A stretch of DNA of 38,421 nucleotides, taken from Nitrococcus sp. Lineage in GTDB: Bacteria > Pseudomonadota > Gammaproteobacteria > Nitrococcales > Nitrococcaceae. The notes beneath the pieces are model-generated. The model did not search any database and was not told the DNA's origin. It saw only the letters and a program-made list of their open reading frames with translations. The translations under genes and the position numbers were made by a program. Of the stretch, positions 16,983 through 29,358 are shown piece after piece. Location: assembly GCA_030452265.1 (NCBI GenBank), contig JAKDMQ010000006.1, positions 1 through 38,421 of the forward strand, in the 5' to 3' direction. The number at the start of each line of letters is the position of its first letter. Within the stretch, counting starts at the first letter, position 1.

Positions 16983-18905
16983 ATGTTGCAAACCATCCGA
17001 GATCGAGCGAAGGGTATCGTGGCCTACATTATCGTCGGCCTGCTGATTATTCCTTTTGCTCTATTCGGTGTTTATAACTACTTTACAGGAGGCTCAAATC
17101 CGCCTGCTGCGACCGTGAACGGGATCGATATCACGCGTAGCGAGCTCGACAATGCCGTGCAGCGCCAGCAGGCCCAGCTACGTGAGCTGCTGGGTGATCG
17201 GTATGACCCGGCACTGTTTGATGAAGAGCGCCTGCGCCGGCAGGTACTCGACCGTATGGTCGATCAGGCCGTGCTGCTGCATTTCGTTCGGCGCCAGGGG
17301 TTACGTATTACGGATGACTCGCTGCGCTCGATTATCCGCAGCCAGCCGTATTTCCTCGTGGATGGTCGATTCTCAGGCGAGCGTTACCGCACGGTGCTGC
17401 AGCAGAATGGATACTCTACGGAGCAATATGAGGCGCAGCTGCGCCGCGAGCACCTGCTGCGGCAGTTGGAATTTGCCATTGCCGCCACCTCCGTAATTAC
17501 GCAGCACGATGTGGCGCAATTTGTGGCACTCGAGCGCCAAAGCCGCAACCTCGCCTGGCTCAGAATCGACGCGGCAGGTTTCCGAGATCAATCCCAGGTG
17601 GATAAAAAAGCAGTTCAGCACTACTACGATACGCACAAGCAGGCGTTACGGCACCCAGCGCAGGTGAAGATCAGCTATATCGAGCTCTCCGAGAACGCGA
17701 TGGCACGTCAGACCCAGCCGGATGACAAGGCTCTGCACCGGTATTACGAAGAGTACAAAGACAGTCGCTTCACACTCCCGAGTGCGCGCAGTGTTCGCCA
17801 CATTCTGATCAAGCTGCCGGAGGTCGCAAGCAAAGAGCAGGTTGCAGCGGCGCGCAAGCAAATTGAAGCGCTGCGTAAGCAAATCGTACAGGGCGCGGAC
17901 TTCGCGCAGATCGCGCGGCGCCACTCGCAGGATGTGGGCTCAGCGAGACGCGGCGGCGAGCTCGGATTCGTGCGCCGGGGGGAGACGGCCGAGGCCGTCG
18001 ACGAAGCGGTCTTCAACCTCCAAGTCGGGGAGATCAGCAAGCCCATCCGCAGCCGCTTCGGCTGGCATTTGATCGAGGTCACAGCCATCCGCCCCGGAGG
18101 GGTTAAACCCTTTTCGCAGGTTAAGGCTCAGATTCGACGGGAATTGCTCGGGCGGGAGGCGGCCAAGCGCTACTATGAGCTTAGCAATCAGGTGGCCAAC
18201 TATGCCTACGAGCATCCTGATAGTCTCGAGCCGGTGGCTGAGAAATACGGCTTGGCGATCCAACAAAGCGAGTGGTTTTCTCGATCTGGCGCCGAAGAGG
18301 GTATTGCCGCTAATCCGCAAGTGGTTGAGGCCGCATTCAGTGCCGAGGTTCTAAAGCAAGGGCTCAATAGTCAAAGCATCGAGCTTGATGATGCACGGCA
18401 GGTCATCCTGCGCGTCGACCATCGAAAACCAGCCACCGTGCCCGCGCTCGAAGAAGTCCAAGATCAAATTCGTGCTAGGCTGATCGCATTGAATGCCGCT
18501 GAACAGGCCCAGGCTCTCGGCGCCGAGCTGCTCGAAAAAGCGAAATCCGGCCGCTCCCTCGAATCGCAAGCCGAGGGCAAGGGCATGCCCTACTCGGCCG
18601 TGGGATGGGTGCAGCGTGACAGCAAGAAGGTGCCGGCTGCCATTATCGAGCAAGGTTTTCTTCTGCCACGCCCGAGCGCCGATAAGCAGACACTGGCGGG
18701 CGTCGAGCTGCCAGATGGGGATTATGTCGTGCTGGCGCTGCGCGGCGTGCGCGACGGTGACCTCAGTGAGATCGATGACGCCGAGCGCAAGCGTGTGCGC
18801 CAGGCGCTGCAGCGCGTGGAATCCGAGCGCACCTTGCAGGCGATGATTGAGCTGCTGCGTAAGCAGGCCGATGTGACGTTGGACCGGAGGCTCACGGCTG
18901 GGTAA
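16983..18905 (+). CDS. ppiD: Periplasmic folding chaperone / peptidyl-prolyl isomerase PpiD
   Basis: PpiD is an inner-membrane-anchored periplasmic chaperone that acts near the SecYEG exit. Length is 640 residues (E. coli 623). One membrane helix lies at about residues 12-36 (GIVAYIIVGLLIIPFALFGV), preceded by a short positive N-terminus, so most of the protein is periplasmic. A SurA-like N-terminal chaperone domain is at about 40-230. The parvulin (PpiC) domain at about 265-370 contains VRHILIKLPE, SQDVGSARRGGELGFV and FGWHLIEV. The E. coli parvulin domain is inactive; activity here cannot be judged by eye. The position after hup is the usual one. Its ribosome site is weak. Confidence 0.95.
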   Translation: MLQTIRDRAKGIVAYIIVGLLIIPFALFGVYNYFTGGSNPPAATVNGIDITRSELDNAVQRQQAQLRELLGDRYDPALFDEERLRRQVLDRMVDQAVLLHFVRRQGLRITDDSLRSIIRSQPYFLVDGRFSGERYRTVLQQNGYSTEQYEAQLRREHLLRQLEFAIAATSVITQHDVAQFVALERQSRNLAWLRIDAAGFRDQSQVDKKAVQHYYDTHKQALRHPAQVKISYIELSENAMARQTQPDDKALHRYYEEYKDSRFTLPSARSVRHILIKLPEVASKEQVAAARKQIEALRKQIVQGADFAQIARRHSQDVGSARRGGELGFVRRGETAEAVDEAVFNLQVGEISKPIRSRFGWHLIEVTAIRPGGVKPFSQVKAQIRRELLGREAAKRYYELSNQVANYAYEHPDSLEPVAEKYGLAIQQSEWFSRSGAEEGIAANPQVVEAAFSAEVLKQGLNSQSIELDDARQVILRVDHRKPATVPALEEVQDQIRARLIALNAAEQAQALGAELLEKAKSGRSLESQAEGKGMPYSAVGWVQRDSKKVPAAIIEQGFLLPRPSADKQTLAGVELPDGDYVVLALRGVRDGDLSEIDDAERKRVRQALQRVESERTLQAMIELLRKQADVTLDRRLTAG

Positions 18906-19846: not shown

Positions 19847-21295
19847 ATGAACCCCATGGAACCCGTAATCGTCCTGGTAGGGCGGCCCAATGTGGGCAAG
19901 TCGACACTGTTCAATTATATTACACGCCGCCGCGATGCCCTTGTAGCGGACTTCGCGGAGCTGACGCGTGACCGCCAGTATGGTCTGGGCCGAGTCGGAG
20001 CGCGTTCCTACATCGTGGTGGACACCGGCGGTATGGGCGAGGACAACGGGGATATCCGCGCCGGTGTTCAGGCCCAGGCGCGCCGGGCGATCGCGCAAGC
20101 CGACGCGCTGCTCTTTCTGGTGGATGCGCGCAGTGGCCCTACCGCGGTGGACGAGGTGCTTGCAAGTGAGCTTCGCGCGCAAGGCAAGCCATTGTTCCTG
20201 GTTGTCAACAAAACCGATGGCGTCAACGCGAGCGCGGCGGCCGCGGATTTTTACGCGCTTGGTTTGGGAGATCCGCATCCGATAGCCGCCGCCCACGGCA
20301 CGGGGGTGGCTCGGCTCATGGCGGCGATGCTCGAGCGCGTGACGACGAGGGCGCAAGATGATGCGCCGGTGTTCAGCGAGCAAGCGCATGCCGCGAGCAG
20401 GCGCATCCGGGTCGCTGTTGTCGGACGTCCAAACGTCGGCAAGAGCACGCTGATCAACCGCCTGTTGGGCGACGAGCGGGTGCTCGTCCACGGTGAGCCC
20501 GGCACCACCCGGGACAGCATCTTCATTCCCTTCGAGCGCGACGCAATCGCCTATACGCTGATCGATACGGCCGGGCTTCGCCGTCGCGGCCGGGTCTATG
20601 AAGCGGTGGAGAAATTCAGCGCCATCAAGACCCTGCAGGCCATTGCGGCGGCGCATGTGGCGATCATTGTGCTCAATGCCCACGAGGACGTGGCCGAGCA
20701 GGATGCCCGTATCATCAATTATGTCCTCGATGCCGGGTGCGCGTTGGTGCTCGCGGTCAACAAATGGGATGGGCTGGATCCCCCGCATAAGAAGCACATG
20801 CGCCGCGCTCTGGAGCGCAAGCTCGCCTTCGTCGATTTCGCCCAAGTGTATTTCATCTCGGCGCTGTGTGGCACCGGCGTGGGGCTGCTCTACGAGGCGG
20901 TGCGGCGGGCTAATGAATCCGCCTGCCGTGAGCTCGATACGCCGTTGCTCAATCGGATATTGGCCGATGCGGTGACGGCGCATCAGCCGCCCTTGGTTCG
21001 GGGCCGCCGGGTTAAGCTGCGTTATGCCCACCAGGGCGGCTGTAATCCCCCGCTAATCGTTATCCATGGTAATCAAACGGCATGTCTGTCCGCGGCCTAT
21101 CGGCGCTATTTGACCAACGTCTATCGTCGCGAGCTGGACCTCTGGGGCACGCCCATTCGACTCGAGCTGCGCACGGGCCGCAACCCTTACGCGGGACGTC
21201 TCAACGTGCTCTCACCCCGCCAACAGGCCCGGCGCAAACGCCTGCTCGCCTTCGTAAAGAGAAACCGGCTGCGGCGCAAGCGTCGCCGCCAATAG
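19847..21295 (+). CDS. der: Ribosome-biogenesis GTPase Der (EngA)
   Basis: Der is an essential GTPase with two tandem G domains that helps mature the 50S subunit. Length is 482 residues (E. coli 490). G1 motifs GRPNVGKST occur twice, near residues 11 and 200. G3 motifs are DTGG and DTAG, and G4 motifs are NKTD and NKWD. The KH-like C-terminal domain follows ([21 protein letters not shown]) and ends in a very basic tail ([11 protein letters not shown]), typical of ribosome binding. Two close ATGs are possible (19847, 19856); neither has a strong ribosome site. A 546-codon open frame on the opposite strand is a shadow of this gene. Confidence 0.97.
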
Positions 21296-21412
21296 CTGAG
21301 TGCTCTCAGCTAGGGGGGCGCGGGGAGCCGTTTATTCGCGGCGCGGTTGCGCGACTATAGCGCGGCTACTTGTAAAAGCTCGAGCCGCGTGCTACATATC
21401 TCAGCACGGGTT

Positions 21413-21438
21413 GTTGCAAAGTTCTTTGCAACGTTTTT
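21413..21438 (+). terminator. Intrinsic terminator between der and the cytochrome c gene
   Basis: GTTGCAAAG (21413-21421) and CTTTGCAAC (21424-21432) form a perfect 9-bp stem with a 2-nt loop, followed by GTTTTT. It separates der transcription from the respiratory operon. The near-perfect symmetry could also be a regulator binding site. Confidence 0.65.
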
Positions 21439-21467
21439 CATAACAGGGGCGTCGTACGTTGCGCATG

Positions 21468-21486
21468 GCTCGCGCGGAGCGCGAGC
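21468..21486 (+). other. Perfect GC-rich hairpin upstream of the cytochrome c gene
   Basis: GCTCGCGC-GGA-GCGCGAGC is a perfect 8-bp stem with a 3-nt loop, ending about 92 bases before the cytochrome start. No T-run follows. It may lie in the 5' leader of the operon or be an operator. No FNR-type (TTGAT-N4-ATCAA) box was found nearby. Confidence 0.45.
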
Positions 21487-21578
21487 TGCTGCGTTTAAAT
21501 GCGGGCGGGCCTTTTCGTAGACGCGCGCAGGACGTTGGATATATGGAGAATCAGCGCCCTGGGTAAGGAGGTTAAGCG

Positions 21579-22457
21579 ATGCTGAATGCCCCGAGCAGGT
21601 GGCGAGCGCAGTTCAAGCAGGTGCTTCTGGTGTTGGTGGCGGTCGGCCTAGGCGTAGTCATCACGGATGCCTGGGCTGCCGATGCGTCCGCCGGTGCCAC
21701 GCTTTTCAAATCGAAATGCGCAGCCTGCCATACGATTGGCGGGGGTGACACGGTAGGTCCGGACCTTGCTGGAGTAACGGAGCGTCGGGACACGCAGTGG
21801 TTGAAGAGCTGGATTGCGGATCCCCCCGGAATGATTGCCTCCGGCGATGCGACCGCGACGTCGCTGAAGAGTAAATACGGCATGACCATGCCCGACCTCG
21901 GGCTCTCCGATGACCAGATCGCCAACGTGATAGCGTACTTGGCGAGCGGCGGCGCTGGCGGAGGGGAGGCCTCAGCGGCGGGTGCCGCGGCGGCGGGCTC
22001 CACGGCAGCAGCGGCGAAGCCGGAGAGCACAGGCTCGGCTGAGCAGGGCGAGCGGCTGTTCACCGGCGAGGCGAGCCTTCGCAACGGTGGTCCGGCTTGC
22101 TCCGCATGCCATGCCGTTGCCGGTGTAGGCGGTGGCAGCATGGGGCCTGATCTGACGACCACATACAGCCGGCTGGGTGATGCGATGATCACGTGGCCGC
22201 AGGCGATGCTGCCGATGAAGCCGATTTTCACCGAAGACCCCCTGACGGATACCGAGAAGGCGGATCTGCTTGCCTTCTTCAAAGAGAAGGCGTCAGGCGA
22301 CGAGCTATCGGCATCCGGGCCGGTGGCGATGCTCCTCGGGCTGTCGATCATTGGAGCCATAGTGCTCGCGGTGATCCTGAGCGTCGTTTGGAAGAAACGG
22401 CTCATTGCGGTCCGTGAGCCCATGGTGTCGGGCACCAATCGCTGGCGTCGAGACTAG
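21579..22457 (+). CDS. Diheme, membrane-anchored cytochrome c of the Nxr/Nar operon
   Basis: A 292-residue periplasmic c-type cytochrome. A signal peptide covers about residues 1-33 (hydrophobic VLLVLVAVGLGVVI, likely cut after DAWA). Heme site 1 is CAACH at 47-51 with candidate Met ligands in YGMTMP (102, 104). An Ala/Gly linker spans about 124-150. Heme site 2 is CSACH at 174-178 with candidate Met ligands in AMLPMKP (210, 213). A C-terminal membrane helix at about 249-271 is followed by WKKR. Both hemes therefore face the periplasm, tethered to the membrane. AAGGAGG precedes the ATG. As first gene of the operon it probably accepts electrons from, or gives them to, the NarI/NxrI b-hemes. 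Thermus NarC and the Nitrobacter nxr-linked cytochrome are the nearest precedents I know. Confidence 0.88.
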   Translation: MLNAPSRWRAQFKQVLLVLVAVGLGVVITDAWAADASAGATLFKSKCAACHTIGGGDTVGPDLAGVTERRDTQWLKSWIADPPGMIASGDATATSLKSKYGMTMPDLGLSDDQIANVIAYLASGGAGGGEASAAGAAAAGSTAAAAKPESTGSAEQGERLFTGEASLRNGGPACSACHAVAGVGGGSMGPDLTTTYSRLGDAMITWPQAMLPMKPIFTEDPLTDTEKADLLAFFKEKASGDELSASGPVAMLLGLSIIGAIVLAVILSVVWKKRLIAVREPMVSGTNRWRRD

Positions 22458-22537: not shown

Positions 22538-25500
22538 ATGGGCTGGATTCAGGATCTAATCAACCCCAAGACTCGCCGGTGGGAGGAGTTTTATCGCAAC
22601 CGCTGGCAGCACGATAACGTCTTCCGCAGCACGCACGGCGTGAATTGCACGGGCGGCTGTTCATGGGCGATCTACGTCAAGGACGGCATCATCACCTGGG
22701 AGATGCAGCAGACCGACTACCCCTTGCTCGGGCGCGGTGAAGGCGGCCATGGTATACCGCCCTACGAGCCGCGCGGCTGTCAGCGCGGCATTTCGGCATC
22801 GTGGTATGTCTATAGCCCGATTCGTGTCAAGTATCCCTACTGCAAGGGCGTGATGCTCGATTTCTGGCGCGAGGCGCGCTCTCGCCACAACAACCCTATC
22901 GAGGCGTGGGGCTCGATGGTCTCCGATGAGAACAAGCGCACGCGCTGGCAGAAGGCCCGCGGCAAGGGCGGGTTTCGGCGCACGACCTGGGATGAGCTGC
23001 TCGAGCTCATCGCCTCCGCTTGTCTCTACACCGTGCAAAAGTATGGGCCCGACCGGGTGATGGGCTTCGCCCCGATTCCGGCGTTTTCGATGGTCTCGTT
23101 TGCGGGCGGCCAGCGCTTCTTGCACCTTCTCGGCGGTTCGACGATCAGCTTCTATGACTGGTACGCGGACCTGCCCACCGCCTTCCCTGAGATCTGGGGC
23201 GATCAGACCGATGTCTGCGAGAGTGCCGATTGGTACAACAGCAAGTTCATCGTCTCGATGGCGGCCAACCTCAATATGACCCGCACGGCGGATGTGCATT
23301 TTATTTCCGAGGCGCGTCATGAGGGCGCGAAGTTTGTGGTGCTCTCGCCGGACTTCAGCCAGGTCAGCAAATACGCCGACTGGTGGATTCCGGTCAAGCG
23401 GGGTCAGGATCTGGCATTTTGGATGGGCGTGGGTCATGTCATTTACACCGAGTTCCATATCAAGCGCCAGGTGCCCTACTTCGTTGACTACCTCCAGCGG
23501 TATACGGACATGCCCTTCCTGGTCAAGCTGGAGAAGGACGGTGACAGCTACCGCTGCGGGCGCTATCTGACGAGCGAGGAGGTCAAGAAGTACAAAAAGC
23601 AGGAGAACGCCGCTTGGAAGATGCTGGTGCTCGACCGTAAGAGCGGCGAGACTCGCTGCCCGAAGGGTCAGATCGGCCACCGCCACCAAAAGCAGCACGG
23701 CCAGTGGAACCTCAAGATGGAGGATGGCCTCGATGACAGCCCCATCGACCCCGTGATGAGCTTCATCGACCAGAGCGATGAAACCCCGCTGGTGCAGTAT
23801 TACGAGTACGCCACGGAGGTCATGTACAAGCGCGGCGTGCCGGCGAAAAAGCTCGAGACCAGCGATGGCCGTAGCGTACTGGTCGCCACGGTCTATGACC
23901 TTAATATGGCGCAGTACGCGGTGGACCGGGGATTGCCCGGCGATTATCCGAAGGACTACGACGACCCCGCGCCTTATACGCCGGCCTGGCAGGAGCAGTA
24001 CAGCGGCGTCGGCCGCCAGACGGTCATCCGCTTCGCCCGTGAGTTCGCCGGCACCGCCGAAAAGACCAAGGGGCGGTGCATGGTCATCTCAGGCGCCAGC
24101 GCCAACCACTGGTACCACAACAACTTCTATTATCGGGCGGACATTAACTGCCTGATCGCCTGCGGCTGCTGCGGACGCAACGGTGGCGGCCATAACCACT
24201 ACGTGGGCCAGGAGAAGCTCGCGCCGGTGGCCTCATGGGCGGCCATAATGAGCGGCGCGGACTGGGGTATCAAACCGCGTCTCACTCAGTCGGCGTGTTG
24301 GCATTACCCGAATAGCGACAGTTGGCGCTACGATGATTTGTTCGAGAAGTACTCGAACCTGCCGCCGCATTCCAAGTTCATGAAGGGCCAGCACTCGATC
24401 GACCTGATCGCAAAGGCCGTGCGCTTGGGCTGGATGTCGTATTACCCGCAGTTCAACCGCAGCCCGATCGAGCTCTGTCGTGAGGCAGAGGAGGCCGGGG
24501 CCAAGAACGACAAGGGTATCGTGGATTATGTGGTGCAGGGTCTGAAGAAGAAGACTCTTCAGTTTGCCATCGACGATGTGGATGCCCCGGAGAACTGGCC
24601 GCGGGTGTGGATCATCTGGCGGGGCAATGCCATGCAGTCGAGCGCGAAGGGGGCGGAGTTCTTCCTGCGCCATTATCTCGGCACGCATGACAACGCGGTC
24701 GCCGAGGAGCGAGCCAAGCCCCACGTCAAGCACGTGAAATGGCGGGAGCCCGCGCCGCGCGGCAAGATGGATTTGGTGCTCGACATCAACTTCCGCATGG
24801 ACACCACGGCGCTGTACTCCGATATCGTGCTGCCGACGGCGTTCTGGTATGAGAAGAATGATATCAATACCACCGACCTGCACTCCTTCATCCACCCGCT
24901 GGGTCAGGCGGTGCCACCGGTCTGGGAGTCCAAGACCGACTGGGATATCTTCAAGCTGTTCGCCAAGGAGGTTAGCAAGCTCGCACCGCAGGCGTTCTCG
25001 GGGCCAGTGAAGGATCTCTGGCATGGGCCGCTGGCACACGACACAGTCGATGGGATGGCCCAGCGAGAGGTGCGCGATTGGATGTATGGGGAGGGCGAGC
25101 CCATTCCCGGCAAGACCATGCCGCATTTAGCCGTGCTCGAGCGGGATTACACGCAGCTCTACGACAAGTACATCTCCCTCGGCCCCGCGATCCGGGAGAA
25201 GGGGATTACCGGTAACGGCTGCAACTTCCCGATCACCAAGCAGTACGATTATATGTGCGAGCAGCCGCTCGGTGCCTCGCCTGATCCGCGGCACAAGCGG
25301 GCGATCGAGTGGGGCGGTAAACGCTATCCCAGCCTCGAGGATCCGATCGATGGCTGCAACGCGATCATGTACCTAGCCCCGGAGACCAACGGTGAGGTCT
25401 GCTATCAAGCCTTCGAGGCCGAGCAGCACCACACGGGTGTCCCGCTGACCGACCTGGCCGAGCCGTACCGAAGCGTGGAGATGAACTTCTACGACATCAC

Positions 25501-26203
25501 CCGGCAGCCGCGGCGTGTGCTGACCAGCCCCTGCTGGAGCGGCAATATCATCGAGGGGCGAGCCTACTCGGCGTGGTGTCTGCAGATTGAGCGGTTGGTT
25601 CCGTTCCGCACGCTTACGGGCCGCCAGCACATCTACCTCGATGCTCCCTGGTATCTCGATTGGGGCGCGCATCTGTGCACCTATCGGCCGAAGCTGGACT
25701 ATCGCAATACCGATGATCTCAGTGTCAGCCCGATCGATGACAAGACGTTGATCCTAAACTACATCACGCCGCACGGTAAGTGGAACATTCACTCCACTTA
25801 CAAGGACAATCACCGTATGTTGACCTTGTCCCGCGGTATGGATCCGGTTTGGATCAATGACAAGGACGCCGAAAGCGTCGGCTTGAAAGACAATGACTGG
25901 GTTGAGGTCTATAATGACAACGGCGTGATTGTGACGCGGACGAATGTGAGCCGACGGGTACAATCGGGTATGTGCCTTTACTACCACGCTGTGGAACGGA
26001 CCATCTACATACCTAAGTCGCAGATCCGCGGCGGCCGGCGTGCGGGTGGTCACAACAGCGTGACGCGTACCCGCATAAACCCGCTGTTTATCGCCGGAGG
26101 GTATGGCCAGTTCACGTATCTGTGGAACTACTGGGGCCCGACCGGAGTATTGACGCGGGATACGCACGTCGCGATTCGCAAGCTCGAGAAGCTTGAATGG
26201 TAG
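22538..26203 (+). CDS. nxrA: NarG/NxrA: molybdopterin catalytic subunit, probably nitrite oxidoreductase alpha
   Basis: Catalytic alpha subunit of the membrane-bound Nar/Nxr group (DMSO reductase superfamily), 1221 residues (E. coli NarG 1247). It interconverts nitrate and nitrite at a Mo-bis-MGD cofactor. The N-terminal FS0 [4Fe-4S] ligands are H33, C37, C41 and C81. The Mo ligand is D225 in [12 protein letters not shown], where E. coli has a proline in place of this cysteine. No twin-arginine signal is present, so the active site should face the cytoplasm. GAGGAGG precedes the ATG. The NXR call is inferred from the leading c-type cytochrome gene and the lack of narK or narXL nearby; a narC-type nitrate reductase (narG) is the alternative. 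The Nar/Nxr family itself is certain. Confidence 0.85.
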
Positions 26204-26286: not shown

Positions 26287-27825
26287 ATGGATATTCGAGC
26301 GCAAGTCTCCATGGTGTTCCATCTGGACAAGTGCATTGGCTGTCACACCTGCAGCATTGCCTGCAAGAACATCTGGACGGACCGCCAAGGCACCGAGTAC
26401 ATGTGGTGGAACAATGTTGAAACCAAGCCTGGTACCGGTTATCCGACGCAATGGGAGGACCAGGAGAAGTACAAGGGTGGTTGGGAGCGTGATTCTCGCG
26501 GGCGGCTGAAGCTGAAGCTGCAGGGCCGTGCGGGCGCTCTGACCAATATTTTCTACAATCCAAGCCTCCCGACCTTGGATGACTACTACGAGCCGTGGAC
26601 TTACGATTACAAGAACCTGTTCGATGCCCCGGAGGGCGACGACCAGCCGACGGCGCGGGCTGTCTCCCTGGTGACAGGCGATTTCATGGACACCCTCGAG
26701 GCCGGCCCGAACTGGGACGACGATCTGGGTGGATCGGAGGTCTACGCGGCTAATGACCCTAACATCCTGAAGAGTTTGAGCGACTCCGAGCAGCAGGCGG
26801 TGAAGTCCCTCGAGCAGACGGTCTTCTTCTATCTACCGAGGATCTGCAATCACTGTCTCAACCCAGGCTGTGTGGCCGCGTGTCCGACCGGGGCCATCTA
26901 CAAGCGTGGCGAGGACGGCATCGTTCTGATCAGCCAGAATCGCTGCCGTGCCTGGCGGATGTGCGTGTCGGGCTGCCCCTACAAGAAGACTTACTTCAAC
27001 TGGTCGACGGGTAAGTCCGAGAAGTGCATCCTGTGCTACCCGCGTCTCGAGAGCGGACAGCCTCCGGCCTGCTTCCATTCCTGCGTCGGGCGCATCCGCT
27101 ACATCGGCATGGTGCTCTACGATGCCGATGGTATCGAGCAGGCGGCGCGCTCACCCGATAGCGGTTTGGTAGATGCGCAGCGGGCGCTCATCATGGATCC
27201 GTTCGATCCTGAAGTTATCGCCGGCGCCAAGCGTAACGGTGTTGGTGACAGCGTGGTTGCGGCGGCGCAGCAGTCACCGGTCTACAAGTTCGTGAAGGTC
27301 TGGGGTCTGGCCTTGCCGTTGCACCCGGAGTTTCGGACCTTGCCCATGCTCTTTTACGTGCCGCCGGTGTTGCCCGTGATTGCGTCGATTCGCGATGGGC
27401 AGTACGAGACGACGGCCGGTATGGAGTCGGCGCCGGCGGATGAGACCGGGCCCGACCTCAATACCGTAGAGAAGGCGCGGCTTCCGATGGCGTACATGGC
27501 GAGCCTATTTACAGCGGGCGATTTGGACGAGATCAAGTTGGTCTACCGCAAGCTGATCGCGGTTCGCATGTACATGCGTCAGGAGCAAGTGGGCGATCAG
27601 AAGGAAGAGGAAGTGCAGGAGGCGATGCGGCTCGCGAAGTTTACCGGGGAGGATTGCTTGCGGGTCTTCGAGCTGACCTCATTGCCCACATTCGAGGAGC
27701 GCTTCGTGGTCCCGCCGATGGAGCGGGAGCGTGCTATGGATGGTGAATTGCCGCCGCTTGATCCATACAGCCGCAAAGCGGCCGGTGGGTTCGGCTTCAG
27801 GGATGCCCCGGCGCGGAGGTTCTGA
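26287..27825 (+). CDS. nxrB: NarH/NxrB: iron-sulfur electron-transfer subunit
   Basis: Beta subunit carrying four iron-sulfur clusters that wire the Mo site to the membrane subunit. Length is 512 residues, the same as E. coli NarH. Cysteine groups are C16/C19/C22/C26, C187/C190/C195/C199, C220/C226/C230 and C247/C250/C262/C266. W223 replaces a cysteine in CRAWRMC, which marks the [3Fe-4S] cluster as in E. coli NarH. AGGAGG lies six bases before the ATG. No nxrX-like (PPIase) gene lies between alpha and beta, unlike the Nitrobacter layout as I recall it. The last coding bases include the ribosome site (GGAGGT) of narJ, so translation is coupled. nxrB is named from the same inference as nxrA; narH is the alternative. 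Confidence 0.86.
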   Translation: MDIRAQVSMVFHLDKCIGCHTCSIACKNIWTDRQGTEYMWWNNVETKPGTGYPTQWEDQEKYKGGWERDSRGRLKLKLQGRAGALTNIFYNPSLPTLDDYYEPWTYDYKNLFDAPEGDDQPTARAVSLVTGDFMDTLEAGPNWDDDLGGSEVYAANDPNILKSLSDSEQQAVKSLEQTVFFYLPRICNHCLNPGCVAACPTGAIYKRGEDGIVLISQNRCRAWRMCVSGCPYKKTYFNWSTGKSEKCILCYPRLESGQPPACFHSCVGRIRYIGMVLYDADGIEQAARSPDSGLVDAQRALIMDPFDPEVIAGAKRNGVGDSVVAAAQQSPVYKFVKVWGLALPLHPEFRTLPMLFYVPPVLPVIASIRDGQYETTAGMESAPADETGPDLNTVEKARLPMAYMASLFTAGDLDEIKLVYRKLIAVRMYMRQEQVGDQKEEEVQEAMRLAKFTGEDCLRVFELTSLPTFEERFVVPPMERERAMDGELPPLDPYSRKAAGGFGFRDAPARRF

Positions 27826-27826
27826 C

Positions 27827-28624
27827 GTGCCGCGGATGAGCAATCTGGTAATGGTGGTGCCGAAGCGCGTGTTTATGCTCTTCGGCACCATACTGGACTA
27901 CCCGACCCGGGATCTGAGCGCACATATCGCAGAGTGTGCGGAGGTTATCGGCGACCGAGCTCCTGCATCGGTCGCCGATCTCGAATCGTTCCGCGAGGAG
28001 GTCGAAGGCGCCCCTTTGGGTTATCTCGAAGAGGTGCATACGGCCTTTTTCGATCTCAATCCTGTGTGTAGGCCTTATGTGGGCTATCACCTTTTTGGTG
28101 AAACCTACCGCCGTAGTATGTTCATGATCCGGCTCAAAGAGATCTACGCGCAAAACGGGTTCGAGTTCCCTAAAAATGACCTGCCTGACCGATTGTCCGT
28201 TTTTTTAAGCTTTCTAGGGACCAACGACGACAATGTGCTCGGGCGTGAGCTCATCGATGAGGCCTTGGCACCAACCATGGCCAAGATGACGGGCATGGAA
28301 GTTCCGGTAAGCCGTGTAGCGTCGGGTCGTGGCCGAGCGCGGTCAGCCAAAAAGGAGAAGGAAGAGGTCGGACCCGTTCCGGGTGGGGCAGAGGCTGGGG
28401 GCCCCGAGCGCCCAGGAACGGGCGGCGGGTCGGAGGAGTTGCAGGGCCATAGCCACGGAGGCGAGGTGGACGATGGTGTTCTGCTCGATGCTGTTCATGA
28501 ATCGGCGGGTGTAGCGAGCGGCGCCAGTTGTTTGTACGTAAAGCCATTACGGTCCCTCGCGCGGATTATCCCAGCGCTGTGGGAGCCCGGGCGGCAGGCG
28601 GCCGCTGGCCGCGGTGAGCTATAG
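27827..28624 (+). CDS. nxrJ: NarJ/NxrJ: chaperone for molybdoenzyme assembly (TorD/NarJ family)
   Basis: System-specific chaperone that holds the alpha subunit until the cofactor is inserted; it is not part of the final enzyme. The start is taken as GTG at 27827, one base after the narH stop, because GGAGGT ends six bases before it; ATG 27836 is the alternative. The track start at 27731 is inside narH. Length is 265 residues (E. coli NarJ 236). Residues up to about 165 are a normal NarJ helical domain (FGTILDYPTRDL, YVGYHLFGETYRRSMFMI, ELPDxL-like DLPDRLSVFLSFLG). An unusual low-complexity stretch rich in G, E, K and P follows before a hydrophobic C-terminus (YVKPLRSLARIIPALWE). Confidence 0.82.
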   Translation: MPRMSNLVMVVPKRVFMLFGTILDYPTRDLSAHIAECAEVIGDRAPASVADLESFREEVEGAPLGYLEEVHTAFFDLNPVCRPYVGYHLFGETYRRSMFMIRLKEIYAQNGFEFPKNDLPDRLSVFLSFLGTNDDNVLGRELIDEALAPTMAKMTGMEVPVSRVASGRGRARSAKKEKEEVGPVPGGAEAGGPERPGTGGGSEELQGHSHGGEVDDGVLLDAVHESAGVASGASCLYVKPLRSLARIIPALWEPGRQAAAGRGEL

Positions 28625-28635
28625 AGGAGCAAGCC

Positions 28636-29358
28636 ATGTCGGATGTGATATTAGTGGGGATTCCCTACGTCGCGGTAGCGCTCGCCATTTTGGTGGGGGT
28701 TTACCGGTTCAAAACGGATACATTTTCGCATTCTAGCTTTTCGTCGCAGTTGCTGGAGAACCAAAAGCTATTTTGGGGATCTGCGTTGTGGCATTACTCG
28801 ATCGTGCTGATATTGTTGGCACACTTTATCGCGTTTTTGATCCCGCCGTTGTGGGGCGCGATCTATGGTGGCGCGGAGGTGGCGTTCGAGGCGTTTGGAT
28901 TGATACTTTCCCTCGTGGGTTTCCTCGCGCTAGGCTGGCTGATGATGCGTCGTTTTAGCTCGCGGCGGATCTTCGTGGTCACGAGCCGTATGGACTGGGT
29001 GGTAATCAGTCTTTTGTTGTTGCAGATGGCGTTGGGCTTCTTGGTCGCGTTGTCCTACCGTTGGGGCGGTCAGTGGTTTGTTTCCAGCACCGCGCCATGG
29101 CTCTGGTCAATGGCGACCTTGAACCCGCAGCCAGAGTATGTCAGCGCGCTGCCGTTTTTGGTGCAGTTCCATTTCTTGGCGGGATTTGTGCTGATTGCGC
29201 TGTACCCGTTTTCTCGTTTGGTGCATTTGGTGTTTTTCCCCATCCATTATATGTGGCGGCCTTATCAGCGCGTTATTTGGAACCGGGCGCCGCGCCCAGG
29301 CCTTGGGTCGACCCGGTCGGTGCCTGAGGACATCAGGCTGCGTAGGTTGAGTTCCTAA
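28636..29358 (+). CDS. nxrI: NarI/NxrI: membrane diheme cytochrome b subunit
   Basis: Gamma subunit that anchors the alpha-beta pair and carries two b-type hemes across the membrane. Length is 240 residues (E. coli NarI 225) with five membrane helices. Heme ligand candidates are all present: H53 and H63 in the WHYSIVLILLAHF helix, and the pair in FHFLAGFVLIALYPFSRLVH. GAGGAGC lies before the ATG and the gap from narJ is 11 bases. In a nitrate reductase it oxidises quinol; in NXR it would pass electrons outward, here plausibly to the operon's periplasmic cytochrome c. It ends the operon, followed by strong secondary structure. Confidence 0.88.
   Translation: MSDVILVGIPYVAVALAILVGVYRFKTDTFSHSSFSSQLLENQKLFWGSALWHYSIVLILLAHFIAFLIPPLWGAIYGGAEVAFEAFGLILSLVGFLALGWLMMRRFSSRRIFVVTSRMDWVVISLLLLQMALGFLVALSYRWGGQWFVSSTAPWLWSMATLNPQPEYVSALPFLVQFHFLAGFVLIALYPFSRLVHLVFFPIHYMWRPYQRVIWNRAPRPGLGSTRSVPEDIRLRRLSS

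Follow-up and report, generated by a model that had tools for sequence, protein, structure and literature searches.

A NarC-type dihaem cytochrome c encoded ahead of nxrA as the probable fourth subunit of a cytoplasm-facing nitrite oxidoreductase in Nitrococcus

Introduction

The dihaem cytochrome c encoded directly upstream of nxrA in Nitrococcus is, by sequence comparison, homologous to NarC, which forms the fourth subunit of the Thermus nitrate reductase, and it very probably serves as the NarC-type fourth subunit of the cytoplasm-facing nitrite oxidoreductase (NXR), carrying electrons onward and probably also stabilizing the attachment of the enzyme to the membrane. This reading is based on the anatomy of the protein, its homology, its operon linkage, the retention of its haem ligands and the altered quinol-site residues of NxrI, all of which were observed here in a 38,421-nucleotide stretch of Nitrococcus DNA (the window) and in related genomes.

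Thermus NarC is a membrane-bound dihaem subunit that contacts NarI in two-hybrid assays (PMC7694296); narC mutants lose the membrane-bound enzyme, and NarC is required for the matured membrane enzyme (PMC7694296, PMC10609526). Its electron transfer within nitrate respiration has been called not well defined (PMC7694296). The same cluster has been noted in Nitrobacter hamburgensis, and a route from NarI via NarC to complex III or IV has been proposed (PMC7694296). The accessory nxr genes listed for Nitrobacter include one for a class I cytochrome c (PMC12815253), and the NXR of Nitrobacter hamburgensis is described as having a c-haem subunit of roughly 32 kDa (PMC12300631), to which the window protein, with a computed mass of 29.9 kDa before processing, can be likened by mass alone. 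The subunit is already known from the Thermus nitrate reductase and from Nitrobacter, and the idea of this electron route has been published before; the window case is a well-supported but ordinary instance of a NarC-type subunit.

Gene organization and 5' region

The cytochrome gene (21579–22457, 292 amino acids, from the ORF call) is the first of five genes on the + strand of this metagenome-assembled genome, and is followed by nxrA (22538–26203), encoding a NarG-type α-subunit of 1221 amino acids with a shortened N-terminus, nxrB (26287–27825; NarH-type β-subunit), nxrJ (27833–28624; NarJ-type chaperone) and nxrI (28636–29358; NarI-type γ-subunit). NxrJ scores above the cut-off of Pfam PF02613 and below that of TIGR00684, and NxrI scores far above the cut-off of Pfam PF02665 and just below that of TIGR00351. 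A frameshift considered for nxrJ was dropped, as its odd C-terminus ends alike in other Nitrococcus genomes. The window genome contains a single nxrA and several haem–copper oxidase operons, in one of which subunit II is c-haem-fused. In comparison with the sister species (locus L020), NxrA is 81% identical, while the cytochrome, NxrB and NxrI are 92–94% identical; the dN of NxrA is 0.127 versus 0.039 for NxrB with similar dS, and the excess lies around codons 400–1000, reflecting either accelerated change or recombination in the window lineage.

The Shine–Dalgarno sequence AAGGAGG (21565–21571, + strand), a perfect match that is identical across five Nitrococcus genomes, lies 7 bases before the ATG of the cytochrome gene. 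Further upstream, a terminator-like hairpin (21412–21433, + strand) separates the cytochrome gene from der (19847–21295), so that a separate transcription unit is likely to begin with the cytochrome gene. The leader also contains a conserved stem-loop (21467–21487, + strand), whose pairing is maintained across the five Nitrococcus genomes and in which a G–C pair is replaced once by A–U through changes on both sides; an Rfam search with this element gave no match, and it may be an RNA structure or a palindromic operator, two possibilities that five sequences cannot tell apart. A gene for a PpiD/SurA-like periplasmic prolyl isomerase (16983–18905) is located upstream of the nxr operon and keeps this place in other Nitrococcus genomes, whereas Nitrobacter carries an nxrX-like gene within the operon.

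Anatomy of the cytochrome

The first-pass annotation, which gave the same coordinates for the gene, had described its product as a dihaem cytochrome with a signal peptide, two CxxCH domains, an Ala/Gly-rich linker and a C-terminal membrane helix, and this anatomy is confirmed; all of the following features are on the + strand. The predicted signal peptide (residues 1–33, 21579–21677) contains a hydropathy segment at residues 15–33 and ends at a cleavage site, read from the sequence, between AWA and AD. The membrane-distal domain carries haem-c site 1, CAACH (residues 47–51, 21717–21731), and Met104 (21888–21890), the likely axial ligand of haem 1 from the alignment, whereas the membrane-proximal domain carries haem-c site 2, CSACH (residues 174–178, 22098–22112), and Met213 (22215–22217), the likely axial ligand of haem 2. 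In the alignment of 16 homologues, 28 residues are invariant, including both CxxCH motifs, Met213, Trp271 and Arg274; Met104 is kept in 14 of the 16, and the Thermus Met aligns beside it. Haem attachment at both CxxCH motifs and cleavage of the signal peptide are predicted from these motifs. The first domain is a clear class I cytochrome, matching Pfam Cytochrom_C with an E-value of 1e-21, while the second domain searched alone matches the same family barely above the cut-off (1.6e-4).

The two domains are joined by a flexible linker (about residues 124–152, 21948–22034, delimited by alignment) which is rich in Ala/Gly/Ser/Pro/Thr (these make up 76% of a segment containing the linker) and differs in length among the homologues. 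The second domain is followed by a transmembrane helix (residues 249–271, 22323–22391; hydropathy 2.91 at 249–267), at the inner end of which Trp271 and Arg274 are located, and by a basic C-terminal tail (22392–22454) that is predicted from the positive-inside rule to face the cytoplasm. A VR.PM motif in this tail is common to the window protein and the Nitrobacter homologues. The single-chain AlphaFold model, which was built from a shallow alignment of three sequences, has a pLDDT of 37. The suggestion in the first-pass annotation that this architecture provides a fixed electron path is only half correct and is overstated, since the distal haem domain is attached through a flexible linker whose length varies.

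Homology to NarC

In BLASTP comparisons the cytochrome matches Thermus NarC over both haem domains with an E-value of 4e-11 (4e-19 in the reverse direction). A NarC-type profile was built from the Thermus and five gammaproteobacterial sequences, with Nitrococcus left out; it scores the window cytochrome at 173 bits (E-value 2e-51) and the next unrelated cytochrome at 46 bits, and a grouping with oxidase-linked cytochromes, a possibility raised in the first-pass annotation, was not seen in this comparison. The Nitrobacter homologues score 182–186 bits and share 45–46% identity with the window protein. For family assignment this profile comparison took the place of a cytochrome tree with outsiders, the base of which was unresolved with long branches, leaving the family unseparated from two long-branch outsiders. 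Annotated plasmids searched with the cytochrome yielded generic cytochromes only, and the Thermus operons were found through NxrA.

As in the Thermus thermophilus NarCGHI system, the cytochrome is encoded by the first gene of the operon, begins with a signal peptide and has two CxxCH domains with His/Met as likely ligands; it further shares with Thermus NarC a low-complexity linker, a C-terminal helix with a conserved W..R at its end and homology across both domains. However, the identity is 27–29%, the Thermus linker is shorter than that of the window protein, and the Thermus enzyme is nitrate-reducing, with a NarI that retains Gly65. The Nitrobacter class I cytochrome c gene is similar in its position upstream of nxrA and in its domain plan, but differs in overlapping nxrA by 1 nt, where the Nitrococcus window has an 81 bp gap, and in encoding a cytoplasmic tail of 65–66 residues compared with 25 in the window protein; in addition, the Nitrobacter nxrX-like gene lies between nxrA and nxrB.

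The best PDB matches of the second domain together with the helix are to the second haem domain of QcrC (about 2e-5). QcrC, the dihaem cytochrome cc of the actinobacterial bc1–aa3 system, acts as a tethered wire between complexes and likewise combines two c-haem domains with a C-terminal membrane helix, but belongs to another family: the window cytochrome scores 59.5 with the QcrC model NCBIfam NF050122, the cut-off of which is 200. Sequence searches of the PDB with the cytochrome and NxrI found no structure of the cytoplasm-facing NXR type.

Linkage to narG/nxrA

In one NarG/NxrA clade, composed of Nitrococcus, Nitrobacter, Thermus and five other gammaproteobacteria, all 15 operons have the NarC-type gene directly upstream; it is absent from that place in all 44 informative nitrate-reductase loci outside the clade (the distant loci with usable upstream sequence and three further loci, L157–L159). 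Among the first 53 loci, which include the window, all 11 in which NarG is at least 53% identical have a dihaem c gene within 81 bp upstream, compared with none of the 42 with an identity of at most 47%, one of the 42 offering only 96 bp of upstream sequence. The Fisher test on the linkage counts gives p = 2.5e-14. The cytochrome-linked NarG/NxrA sequences form a single clade (SH-aLRT 100), and the counts therefore reflect one inherited association and not repeated origins. The gene order and the dihaem anatomy are conserved in four other Nitrococcus genomes (in three of which nxrA is on the same contig as the cytochrome gene), four Nitrobacter genomes, two Thermus genomes and five gammaproteobacterial operons, which argues that the arrangement is not due to chance. 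The latter five (L034–L038) are narCGHJI-type operons with a Thermus-like NarG that is 53–55% identical to NxrA; transporter-like genes follow downstream in four, and the fifth contig stops within narG.

Five genomes of one genus contain two nxrA copies each, with about 67% identity. This genus was taken to be Nitrobacter from the two copies, the family and the nxrX-like gene; the genomes were drawn from the family of a Bradyrhizobium-like genome, a phylum-wide draw having yielded none. The cytochrome gene precedes the operonic nxrA in 4/4 cases, with a 1 nt stop/start overlap; the fifth genome was left out of this count as its second nxrA begins at a contig end. The five orphan nxrA genes (L146, L149, L151, L152 and L154), which are close in sequence to the operonic ones, have no cytochrome gene, nxrB or nxrI nearby, which suggests that the cytochrome is tied to the membrane module. 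The first-pass proposal that the cytochrome is the likely electron partner of the enzyme is supported by this absence, together with the NarC homology and the clade-wide synteny. A locus of another genus (G937; L156, 1–2805) contains an NxrA-like gene of 64–66% identity that is cut by the contig end and has no cytochrome gene upstream, and represents either contamination or transfer.

NxrI and the quinol site

In the alignment of NxrI with Escherichia coli NarI, all four haem-b His residues are conserved. The E. coli sequence used as a ruler was checked at its key residues, and agrees with the PDB chain except at the sites mutated there; the PDB sequence 1y5i carries K86A. Gly65 and Lys86 are quinol-site residues of E. 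coli NarI, an assignment that comes from earlier work in that species. The position of Gly65 corresponds to Ala62 of the window NxrI (28819–28821) and is Ala in 7/7 NxrI sequences (four from Nitrococcus and three from Nitrobacter), compared with Gly in 47/47 NarI sequences of nitrate reductases (six NarC-type and 41 canonical). Around position 86 the alignment is gappy; with this caution, the canonical NarI sequences have Lys, His or Tyr here. Arg occupies the position in Thermus, in two Nitrococcus and in the gammaproteobacteria, Nitrobacter has Ala, and the window NxrI and its sister show a gap or Val. The Ala65 pattern, which is correlative, is consistent with electrons leaving NxrI to the cytochrome and not to quinone. 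The stronger statement, that nitrite oxidizers have dismantled the NxrI quinol site (Ala for Gly65 throughout, Lys86 lost or replaced) with the haem path kept, leaving the NarC-type cytochrome as the sole electron exit, is put forward tentatively, as slightly less likely than not.

Proposed electron path and alternatives

We infer the contact between the cytochrome and NxrI, the order of the haems, the direction of electron flow and the acceptor as follows. The C-terminal helix would hold the second haem domain next to NxrI on the periplasmic side of the membrane. The electrons taken from nitrite would be transferred from NxrA (Mo and Fe–S) to the Fe–S clusters of NxrB, then to the two b haems of NxrI, further to the membrane-proximal haem c2 and on to haem c1 in the flexibly linked domain. 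They would finally reach a terminal oxidase, either directly or via a soluble cytochrome c, with part of the electrons returning through the bc1 complex. The haem order and a possible swinging of the first domain are suggested by the composition and the length variation of the linker. The cytochrome would probably also stabilize the membrane attachment of NxrAB, the N-terminus of NxrA being short: 18 residues precede the YRNRWQHD-type motif in NxrA compared with 35 in canonical NarG, and the clade as a whole is 17 residues shorter. In E. coli the N-terminus of NarG contacts NarI and NarJ, and the Thermus complex needs NarC and NarI for stability and activity (PMC10609526). This need in Thermus, taken with the short N-terminus of NxrA, makes a double role of the cytochrome, as wire and anchor, the most likely one.

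The role in assembly or membrane attachment shown for Thermus NarC would, by analogy, be equally expected for the window cytochrome, and it could be asked whether this is its main function, with little flux through its haems and with a soluble cytochrome c taking electrons directly from NxrI. Thermus narC mutants indeed contain soluble, immature NarG, and the electron role of NarC in nitrate respiration is unsettled (PMC7694296, PMC10609526); moreover, the N-terminal segment that touches NarI and NarJ in E. coli is missing from the NarG/NxrA of this clade. However, a pure scaffold would need neither the two CxxCH motifs nor Met213, all of which are invariant, complementation in Thermus indicates that the distal haem matters for growth on nitrite (PMC7694296), and the loss of the quinol-site residues of NxrI calls for another electron exit, so that we regard a predominantly structural role as unlikely.

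It is very improbable that nitrate reduction is the main activity of the complex in this organism, with the cytochrome forming a side branch that leads to acceptors in the periplasm, as has been proposed for Thermus: although the Thermus enzymes of the same clade are nitrate reductases with NarC (PMC7694296), the window NxrA groups with the Nitrobacter-like NxrA (a genus identity that is itself inferred) rather than with Thermus (SH-aLRT 100), NxrI carries the Ala of nitrite oxidizers at position 65, and Nitrococcus is a known nitrite oxidizer with a cytoplasmic NXR (PMC3578206). Nitrite oxidation is accordingly the activity predicted for the window enzyme from its sequence. That the cytochrome is an unrelated, oxidase-linked protein which adjoins the nxr genes by an accident of position is barely credible; the resemblance of its first domain to many class I cytochromes, the weak similarity of its second domain and helix to QcrC and the behaviour of the cytochrome tree might suggest it, but the profile sets the protein more than 120 bits apart from all other cytochromes compared, and the synteny extends over Nitrococcus, Nitrobacter, Thermus and other gammaproteobacteria. 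An electron-carrying fourth subunit that also anchors the enzyme is the reading that we prefer.

Conclusion

By what path electrons exit a nitrite oxidoreductase that faces the cytoplasm is a basic question in the study of nitrification, for which the conserved cytochrome, together with the altered site in NxrI, offers a concrete and testable route. If the quinol site of NxrI is indeed dismantled, this would be a sequence mark separating NXR from the nitrate reductases of the same clade, and the altered site may provide a possible way of telling the two enzymes apart in genomes recovered from metagenomes.
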